Shown here piece by piece: positions 18,196 through 24,309 of a DNA stretch of 32,777 bases. The notes below the pieces were generated by a model, which saw only the letters and a program-made list of their open reading frames with translations, was not told the DNA's origin and ran no database searches. The translations under genes were made by a program, and so were the position numbers. How positions within the stretch are numbered: the first letter of the stretch is position 1; every line of letters starts with the position of its first letter. The stretch comes from a virus. The stretch lies in the IMG/VR virus record IMGVR_UViG_3300027710_000006, positions 1 to 32,777 of that record. One strand, written 5' to 3'.

Positions 18196-18383
18196 AAACC
18201 TATATTTTCCTTTATTATTTTACTATTTAAAACCTTAAACGGCGAATCTTTACCTTTGCCAAACAACTCTCGTTTAATCCGTCTATCGTATTGCTCCCAG
18301 TCGTCATTGTTTGCCATTATTTTAATGTGTTTGATTTGATGGCCTATCTGGCAAATCAATTCATAATATTTAGGATTGTTCAT
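18192..18383 (-). CDS. Small hypothetical protein, 63 residues
   Basis: I do not recognise this protein. It is mainly basic and helical, starts MNNPKYYELICQIGHQIKHI, and contains RRIKRELFGKGKDSPFK. It overlaps the upstream replication-associated gene by 14 bases and the downstream membrane gene by 4 (ATGA), and the coupling supports its reality. The net positive charge would allow nucleic-acid contact. Confidence 0.55.
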   Translation of the reverse strand: MNNPKYYELICQIGHQIKHIKIMANNDDWEQYDRRIKRELFGKGKDSPFKVLNSKIIKENIGL

Positions 18384-19107
18384 TTATCTGGTTAACTCTA
18401 TAAGCTAAATATTCAGACTTAGTCAATTTGCGCCCCTCTACGCTAATAACTCGCACCGCACCACTACTTGGTTCACTTCGCCATAGTTCGTCAAACTCAG
18501 CCAGTAATTCACGTGTTCTCGACCATTCTTTCGGCTCTGGTGCTTTCTTATATTCTTTTTTATCTATTATTTTGTTTGTTAATGCTTTAACTTGCTCAAT
18601 TATTTCGTCCGATGGCTTATTGTCCAGATAGCTTTGCTCCCATTGTTTATATTTTTCTTGAATGGCTTCTGACTCAACTTGCTCCTTAGCCTTTTTTAAA
18701 TCGTTTTCAAATCTATGCAAAATTTTAAAAATAGTGGTAATGTCAAATGAATGAAACAATTCGATTTCTGGATATTTACCCATTTTAAAGTTGTTAAACG
18801 CCATAACGATGTGTTGCACAGACCAATAGTAATATTCCGAATAAATCATTTGCGCCGCTTCAGCTATCTGGTGTTCGTTCATGTTCTTAGAAACATTCAA
18901 AGAAACGATTAAACCATCAATTGTGCGCTCAATTACTTTTGAGACAAAGCCATCGCCCTGCTCTTTTCTAATCAATGCCAATGGAGTCGGACTGGCTATT
19001 ATCAATTCTTTGATTGTCCCCAAAAATAACTTTGGCGATGTACTGGTCGGCTTGCTTAATGCGTTGCTCGACTGCATTTCTGTTCTTTTCAAATTCTGAT
19101 TTTCCAT
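18370..19107 (-). CDS. Putative replication-associated protein, 245 residues
   Basis: A mainly helical protein directly downstream of, and overlapping by 140 bases, the DUF4373-type initiator. The central region (IYSEYYYWSVQHIVMAFNNFKMGKYPEIELF) is the kind of block found in phage proteins that follow replication initiators, possibly helicase-loader-like, but no AAA+ motifs are present. The C-terminus (VEGRKLTKSEYLAYRVNQ) is basic. ATG at 19107 is used; ATG at 19077 would shorten the overlap slightly. The function is inferred from context. Confidence 0.55.
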   Translation of the reverse strand: MENQNLKRTEMQSSNALSKPTSTSPKLFLGTIKELIIASPTPLALIRKEQGDGFVSKVIERTIDGLIVSLNVSKNMNEHQIAEAAQMIYSEYYYWSVQHIVMAFNNFKMGKYPEIELFHSFDITTIFKILHRFENDLKKAKEQVESEAIQEKYKQWEQSYLDNKPSDEIIEQVKALTNKIIDKKEYKKAPEPKEWSRTRELLAEFDELWRSEPSSGAVRVISVEGRKLTKSEYLAYRVNQINEQS

Positions 19108-19753
19108 TTTTTATAGTTTGATTGTCTCTTTTTTCCCAATTTTTGATGGCTGCCGCCCAGTTTAGATATTTAACTCCTTTGGACTGCGAATATAGCAAAG
19201 CGCTTTCATAATACTTAGCGAGTTTTTCACGTTCCCAATCTGGGAACGCCTCTTTAAATATTTTTTTTTCAAAATAAATAGAGTTTTCAAATGAATGTTT
19301 TTTAGTAAGCGTCAATTCGTTAGAATTGCTATACTCTTTTACTTTACTTCTATTTACTTTACTTATCTTTACTTTAGATGCGTTTCGTACATGTTCGGAA
19401 TGCGTTTCATTTTCTGCAACGTTCTGATTTTCACGCCATTGTTTCAAACGTTCTGCGGTTTTTTCTTTTTTTATCTTATAGTTTTCACTAAACTTTAGCA
19501 ATTGTTTGTTGAAACTTTCGCCATTGTTTGACGATATTAGTCCAATACTTTCCATAAACGACCAACATTTGTCCAACTTTTTACCGATGTTTAATTGCTT
19601 TTTTAGCACCGCAGTTTTGATTGGTTTTTCTTGTTGGGCGAACTTTTCTAATGCAGTATAAAACAAGCCGAGACCCTCATAACCAAAAGCCATAAATAGT
19701 TCTGTTACCTTTTCGTCATTAAAGGAGTTTGAATCGTGTAAAAAATACTTCAT
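18968..19753 (-). CDS. Replication initiation protein, DUF4373 (Lin1244/Lin1753-like) type
   Basis: A 261-residue protein starting MKYFLHDSNSFNDEKVTELF. The opening F-x-H-D-x-x-x-x-x-D-E-K followed by G-Y-E-G-L-G-L-F-Y-x-x-L-E is the classical start of the DUF4373/Lin1244 winged-helix domain found in phage replication initiators. This is followed by a basic linker (residues 95-125) and a second helical region around 160-215 with REKLAKYYES and YLNWAAAIKNWE, like the DnaD/replisome-organiser C-terminal part. It probably binds the origin and recruits the helicase loader. It begins only 6 bases after a strong terminator, so its expression likely depends on read-through. Confidence 0.75.
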   Translation of the reverse strand: MKYFLHDSNSFNDEKVTELFMAFGYEGLGLFYTALEKFAQQEKPIKTAVLKKQLNIGKKLDKCWSFMESIGLISSNNGESFNKQLLKFSENYKIKKEKTAERLKQWRENQNVAENETHSEHVRNASKVKISKVNRSKVKEYSNSNELTLTKKHSFENSIYFEKKIFKEAFPDWEREKLAKYYESALLYSQSKGVKYLNWAAAIKNWEKRDNQTIKNGKSEFEKNRNAVEQRIKQADQYIAKVIFGDNQRIDNSQSDSIGID

Positions 19754-19759
19754 GGATGT

Positions 19760-19796
19760 AAAAAAATAAAGCCCACCAGTCGAGATTGGCGGGCTT
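19760..19796 (-). terminator. Intrinsic terminator upstream of the replication initiator gene
   Basis: The minus strand reads AAGCCCGCCA (19796-19787), loop ATCTCGAC, TGGTGGGCTT (19778-19769), a 10 bp stem with one G-U pair, then TATTTTTTT. It stands between the HTH-type gene and the replication initiator, only 6 bases before that ATG. Its loop is complementary over 7 bases to the loop of the hairpin just upstream (19825-19858), which makes it a candidate attenuator and not a plain end of transcription. Confidence 0.88.
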
Positions 19797-19824
19797 AGAG
19801 GTTAGTAGTAATTAACCTTTAAAA

Positions 19825-19858
19825 TAATTTCACTTGCTCTCGACTTCAAATGAAATTA
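19825..19858 (-). ncRNA. Upstream hairpin with loop complementary to the terminator loop
   Basis: TAATTTCATTTG (19858-19847) pairs with CAAGTGAAATTA (19836-19825), a 12 bp stem with one G-U. The 10-base loop is AAGTCGAGAG. GTCGAGA in this loop is the exact complement of TCTCGAC in the terminator loop about 50 bases downstream. There is no T-run. The 124-base gap between the two genes contains this hairpin, a small imperfect repeat GGTTA...TAACC, and the terminator, and no further gene is visible. It may instead belong to an origin of replication. Confidence 0.5.
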
Positions 19859-19878
19859 CTGAACTCAAATATCGGTAT

Positions 19879-20025
19879 TTAATCCAATAAAATAAAATTA
19901 ATTCCAGATATTTTTAAAACTTTTACTTTGCCAGTCTTAGCCATGTGATATGACCACTGGGTTGTTTTATTATTCTTTTTAGCGTACTCACTAAAGCTAA
20001 TCAATTTTGATGTTTCTATTTTCAT
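19879..20025 (-). CDS. Small HTH (HTH_17/excisionase-like) DNA-binding protein, 48 residues
   Basis: The frame begins MKIETSKLISFSEYAKKNN and continues TTQWSYHMAKTGKVKVLKI to stop. The order 'S-x-x-E-Y-A-K ... x-x-x-x-Y-x-M-x-x-x-G-K-V-K-x-x-K-I' is that of MerR/excisionase-type winged-helix domains (helix, turn, recognition helix, then a K-x-x-K-I wing). It has its own promoter with both boxes 3 bases before the ATG, so it is independently expressed. Because no integrase is present, a regulator is more likely than an excisionase. Confidence 0.65.
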   Translation of the reverse strand: MKIETSKLISFSEYAKKNNKTTQWSYHMAKTGKVKVLKISGINFILLD

Positions 20026-24258: not shown

Positions 24259-24290
24259 AAAAAAAAAGCCGCACATTTCTGTACGGCTTT
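24259..24290 (-). terminator. Intrinsic terminator at the end of the portal-to-spanin unit
   Basis: The minus strand AAAGCCGTAC (24290-24281), loop AGAAAT, GTGCGGCTTT (24274-24265) forms a 10 bp stem with one G-U pair, followed by a run of T residues to 24259. It lies directly after the spanin gene stop at 24310 and separates late transcription from the early control region. Confidence 0.93.
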
Positions 24291-24309
24291 CCAAACTATG
24301 AACCTAAAA

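Follow-up and report, generated by a model that had tools for sequence, protein, structure and literature searches.

Several small phage RNAs are cut from, or share, the leader of the gene that they control. The CI RNA of P4 and the C4 RNAs of P1 and P7 are of this type, acting via self-complementary segments and, in P4, via transcription termination. In other RNAs, among them the HIV-1 dimerisation initiation site (DIS) and the phi29 prohead RNA, purine-flanked or complementary loops kiss. The C4 antisense RNA is listed in PMC2864571. In plasmid antisense copy control, changes to the recognition loops create new specificities (PMC4485353).

Here we describe an RNA element found directly upstream of a replication initiator gene in the IMG/VR virus record IMGVR_UViG_3300027710_000006, positions 1–32,777 of which make up the window. 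This phage RNA element is widespread, covaries strongly, is absent from Rfam and does not belong to any of the known antisense families against which it was tested. A sequence-only reading had assigned it to no named family, and this still stands: neither the window nor 18 related loci gave an Rfam 15 match at the gathering score. The best sub-threshold match was ncr1575 (29.4 bits, with 60 needed), and C4 (RF01695), likewise without a match at the gathering score in the window and the 18 loci, was not among the E ≤ 5 matches near the site. Literature searches found no description of this RNA element.

The locus and its RNA element

The window encodes a portal protein, head maturation protease, terminase, tape measure protein, Erf-like annealing protein, exonucleases and an endolysin; no integrase was seen among the window proteins scanned, which were a subset of the total. 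The element is located on the minus strand between the gene for a 48-aa putative HTH protein and that for a Lin1244-like initiator. The initiator, whose ATG is at 19753, matches the Pfam Lin1244_N family below the cut-off (E 1.1e-4), and searches of named phages, at the nucleotide and at the protein level, returned no relative of it. The features of the locus are as follows.

19879–20025, minus strand: gene for the 48-aa putative HTH protein (translation; weak family matches only), ending ~18 nt before HP1
19866–19873, minus strand: probable Bacteroidota -7 promoter box, GAUAUUUG / GATATTTG, 7/8 of the consensus TAnnTTTG
19823–19860, minus strand: HP1, a 14-bp hairpin with G-U/A-U ends and loop AAGUCGAGAG (MFE fold)
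19838–19844, minus strand: kissing strand 1, GUCGAGA, in the HP1 loop, the exact complement of strand 2
19799–19818, minus strand: HP2, a short hairpin AGGUUA..UAACCU (core GGUUA..UAACC) of nearly invariant sequence (MFE fold, alignment A5)
19769–19796, minus strand: terminator hairpin, 10 bp, loop AUCUCGAC (MFE fold and terminator scan; the stem covaries)
19779–19785, minus strand: kissing strand 2, UCUCGAC, in the terminator loop, covarying with strand 1
19757–19768, minus strand: U-rich tract completing the intrinsic terminator (terminator scan), U-rich also in the listed relatives
18968–19753, minus strand: replication initiator gene (Lin1244-like), 261 aa, matching PHROG 2562 replication initiation protein (E 3.9e-7)

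The minus-strand RNA from 19878 to 19754 has a minimum free energy of -33.8 kcal/mol (z = -3.75), and none of 200 shuffled sequences folds as well. Within it, positions 19760–19860 form three hairpins: HP1, HP2 and the intrinsic terminator. The sequence-only reading had described two hairpins sharing an exact 7-nt loop complement, the second being a 10-bp intrinsic terminator; both hairpins are real, the complement is present and the terminator is borne out by fold and terminator scan, but HP2, lying between them, had been missed. Pairing of GUCGAGA with UCUCGAC has a duplex energy of -9.3 kcal/mol. The sequence directly 3' of the terminator hairpin is UAUUUUUUU, and a terminator hairpin with a U-tract is present in the listed elements of relatives, the ATG following the terminator within ~2–25 nt.

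Some further features of the window were noted. GTCGAGA has two further sites elsewhere. The ORF at 18370–19107 shares 140 nt (18968–19107) with the initiator ORF, to which it is next; its gene may truly start further down. Another strong hairpin resembling a terminator, with 13 bp, a loop of 4 nt and a long U-tract, is found at 24263–24292 on the minus strand, in the early region.

Covariation of the kissing loops

Taken alone, the window's two complementary hairpins could be chance. As background, 64 of 10,540 distinct hairpin pairs in 0.96 Mb of the contigs studied had at least 7 complementary loop bases, and most of these 64 were this element or its opposite-strand copy; outside the element ~0.2%, as read from the list, reached 7 complementary bases, and those were mostly A/T-rich.

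Relatives were collected by protein-based scans of IMG/VR and bacterial genomes, giving 242 initiator loci (some contigs being counted repeatedly), of which 149 were distinct in the last 110 nt. Where a strong terminator hairpin stands beside the ATG, an upstream hairpin with a 6–10 nt complementary loop is nearly always present. A second search, for tighter hairpins, revealed further types, for instance GUCGUAU/AUACGAC and AUGGUAC/GUACCAU, whose 7-nt loops are paired throughout. The loop pairs diversify among relatives, more than 20 different pairs being seen across those from IMG/VR.

In alignment A5 (29 distinct rows), all 216 of 216 kissing-helix cells are standard pairs, every one of them Watson-Crick, with two-sided changes in four of the eight pairs and no one-sided changes. 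None of 500 shuffles reached either the paired percentage or the covariation score, and partners slid out of register pair at 31–50%. In alignment A6 (14 rows), which represents a separate clade, the helix is 97.3% paired, with 4/8 pairs again changed on both sides. Parsimony requires at least ~11 independent double changes in A5, an approximate figure as the tree, built without the loop columns, is short and noisy. Native loops pair over at least 7 bp in 27/33 cases (82%), compared with 7% of combinations swapped between loci. Strict double transversions distinguish some very closely related loci (L022/L281 and L022/L245, for example). Since the match has been kept even where the loop sequence has wholly changed, the loop–loop contact is, on this comparative evidence, under strong selection. 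The loops do not evolve measurably faster than the stems (0.062 versus 0.051–0.062 per site), so diversifying selection on them is raised here as a possibility. A conserved U-turn (YUNR) loop motif was also considered and, on inspection of the elements, is not general.

The three stems behave differently. Two-sided changes are seen in 7/13 pairs of the HP1 stem in A5, and the terminator stem also covaries. HP2 is the most sequence-conserved part of the element: its five counted pairs are all invariant in the 29 sequences of A5, and close relatives show 0/660 differences. Its near-invariance from clade to clade, where compensated pair changes would have been possible, suggests that HP2 may be recognised by a protein or RNA.

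The element was also sought on its own, using two patterns in which the terminator-side sequence was fixed and four loop positions were free. Of 101 distinct matches 98 are real elements, the others (L343, L371 and L401) being chance pattern matches that lack the structure. Seven or eight loop bases match in 97 of the 98. In the covariation check that the sequence-only reading had named, double compensatory changes in many relatives thus support the loop–loop contact which that reading had proposed, with a sole mismatch among the 98. This single one-sided loop change (GUUGUGAG versus CUCACUAC) is in L442, on contig IMGVR_UViG_3300020044_004370, and is possibly an evolutionary intermediate or an assembly artefact.

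Association with replication initiators

Wherever enough sequence is available downstream, the element is followed by a phage replication initiator, with either no gene or at least one small gene in between. By script, 85 of the 98 were assigned to five initiator types (65 adjacent to the initiator, 20 after at least one inserted small gene). Among the remaining 13, eight with full flank and one cut short lead to other Lin1244-type YYFSHD proteins; for the other four, the contig ends within ~150 nt of the element. There are at least five types of initiator N-terminus: KY(F/Y)LHDS, YYFPHFCNARHDRK (Lin1244_N, E 1.4e-14), HTH_36, DnaA/DnaD-like (PHROG 6251) and DnaD-like (PHROG 2514). A covariance model (R1) built from A5 placed the element before SIGWIKVHRK-type initiators as well, and also at loci in which it is separated from the initiator by an HNH or other gene.

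Related initiators may have the C-terminal part or the locus in common and yet carry unrelated N-terminal DNA-binding domains (L044, L045, L138, L149, L039–L043, L048, L050 and L428–L456), as if the N-terminal domain had been exchanged in situ while the leader RNA before it stayed the same. Retention of the RNA while this domain is exchanged argues against simple autoregulation by the domain. Elsewhere, the exact junction of terminator and initiator holds an inserted HNH endonuclease gene or another small gene (L116 and L129, with other genes in L104, L112, L119 and L216). The 63-kb contig IMGVR_UViG_3300043436_001856 has two copies of the initiator region ~32 kb apart (L130 and L190), perhaps reflecting a concatemer or misassembly.

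Some related initiators among the loci collected lack the element. More distant initiators in named phages and a plasmid (EF62phi, LBR48, a Porphyromonas phage, Flavobacterium phage 1/32 and a Crassaminicella plasmid) showed no kissing pair with a U-tract after it. A scan of 395 Bacteroidota genomes did not find the element pattern, their Lin1244 loci had no kissing pair followed by a terminator, and a clade-2 element used as a DNA query gave no match. Many uncultured phages carry the element, and their hosts are probably Bacteroidota, an assignment that we infer from the -7 box described below and from a Hymenobacter MAG contig with the element (L166).

A promoter-like box and the RNA strand

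The Bacteroidota -7 consensus is TAnnTTTG (PMC2483708). The sequence-only reading saw no separate promoter here, and in this it was probably wrong. The window's own box at 19873–19866 has one mismatch and is accompanied by no clear -33 box, but relatives have a perfect box, TATATTTG, at the corresponding place just upstream of HP1. By script, a TATTTG or TATATTG box is located 2–16 nt upstream of HP1 in 52/59 elements. The constant place of the box would put the transcription start at the foot of HP1. A promoter directly upstream of HP1 is thus very likely, judging from box position, so that the RNA can be a ~100-nt transcript in its own right.

G-U cells outnumber A-C cells in the stems by 83:11 and 23:2, indicating that the structure is that of RNA from the initiator's strand. 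On the plus strand of the initiator start region no TAnnTTTG was seen by eye.

Proposed role and alternatives

The few bases that separate the U-tract from the ATG are too few to hold a promoter, and thus every initiator-bound transcript would have to cross the terminator. The simplest role for the ~95–105-nt leader or small RNA is therefore proposed to be that of a conditional terminator, or attenuator, dosing expression of the initiator, with the kissing contact setting terminator efficiency; we give this reading a probability of roughly 0.6. Transcription would start from the promoter at the foot of HP1 and end at the terminator directly before the initiator gene. The loops of HP1 and the terminator would form a kissing helix of 7–9 bp, most likely by the HP1 loop capturing the terminator's loop strand as this emerges, and the released small RNA, bearing both loops, could compete in trans for the contact as gene copies accumulate. 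The contact would change read-through, the initiator level being the regulated output. That the element has a role in replication gene expression had been suggested by the sequence-only reading, and its constant place directly before initiators fits this; what that suggestion left out was the promoter and HP2.

Kissing is compatible with a formed terminator, and the element is thus not a classical either/or switch. A crude length model using our own figures (2.8 Å per bp, 6 Å per linker nt and 18 Å across HP2) gives rods of 76–98 Å, compared with a reach of 36–102 Å with HP2 folded and 96–186 Å with HP2 open. With HP2 folded, the linker on this rough estimate is too short for a full intramolecular rod unless 0–7 bp fray or HP2 opens. 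In many elements full kissing in cis therefore seems to need fraying or HP2 opening, making HP2 a candidate switch and pairing in trans, by intermolecular contact, a possibility.

Pairing in trans could also make the element a self-antisense copy sensor. Each terminated RNA has both a loop and its complement; once released, it would bind the loop of HP1 or of the terminator in leaders still being made, so that termination ahead of the initiator is reset while phage copies build up. We consider this extension tentative and rather unlikely. If true, diverging loops would make related phages non-interfering, in the manner of plasmid incompatibility groups, all within one RNA and with no separate antisense gene.

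An alternative that we regard as improbable, though less so than those that follow, is that the kissing loops serve only to give a ~100-nt RNA a compact, stable fold and that this RNA acts on other targets in trans, its position before initiators being incidental or a matter of timing. In favour of such a free-standing small RNA are its own promoter-like box and terminator, and the invariant HP2 could bind a protein. Against this, element-only matches with enough flank all precede a replication initiator, and the terminator would affect that gene regardless, as no promoter fits between the two.

Constant linkage to initiators of different families would suit an origin module equally well, with the transcript priming or opening the origin (as do ColE1 RNA II and phage primer RNAs) and the kissing loops controlling its folding. 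That the terminator ends the RNA right at the gene, and that the same RNA is used with different initiator DNA-binding domains, makes this distinctly unlikely. Slightly less probable again is intermolecular assembly, in which complementary loops would link separate RNAs and so form dimers or rings, like those of HIV DIS and phi29 prohead RNA. The short linkers that strain full pairing in cis are in its favour, as is the AA-7nt-R form of the HP1 loop, which resembles the DIS loop; but the association is with initiators rather than packaging genes, and with both loops near each other in one short RNA, pairing in cis is favoured by concentration. A DNA-level role, with hairpins in single-stranded DNA or a cruciform at the origin, draws on inverted repeats adjoining the initiator gene and is very improbable given the G-U versus A-C bias, the promoter-like box and the U-tract, all of which indicate one RNA strand.

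The element offers a defined and testable code of loop pairs by which these phages may set their replication dose. Its natural compensated loop pairs are a ready-made mutational series and could be used as an orthogonal kissing-loop toolkit.

Comparison with known systems

The element has the two hairpin loops with conserved, covarying complementarity that define a kissing-loop RNA, and it appears, from its comparative signature, to work like kissing-loop replication control. In ColE1 (RNAI/RNAII), R1, pIP501 and pMV158, too, loop–loop kissing controls a replication initiator or primer. The element differs from plasmid antisense RNAs in that a single transcript carries the two complementary loops, one being the terminator loop; moreover, whereas RNAs of the RNAI type come from the opposite strand, no antisense promoter was seen and the element shares the initiator's strand. 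Like the P4 CI and C4 RNAs it would be a small phage RNA tied to the leader of the gene that it controls, but its structure differs from theirs, and it precedes replication initiators rather than antirepressor genes. In HIV-1 DIS and phi29 prohead RNA kissing is intermolecular, whereas the element has no link to genome dimers or packaging. With leader attenuators that use intrinsic terminators it shares a terminator directly before the regulated gene, here downstream of a promoter predicted from sequence. It differs from them in having no competing antiterminator hairpin: the contact is instead between the terminator loop and an upstream loop, and a terminator loop as kissing partner is described for no attenuator that we found in the literature.
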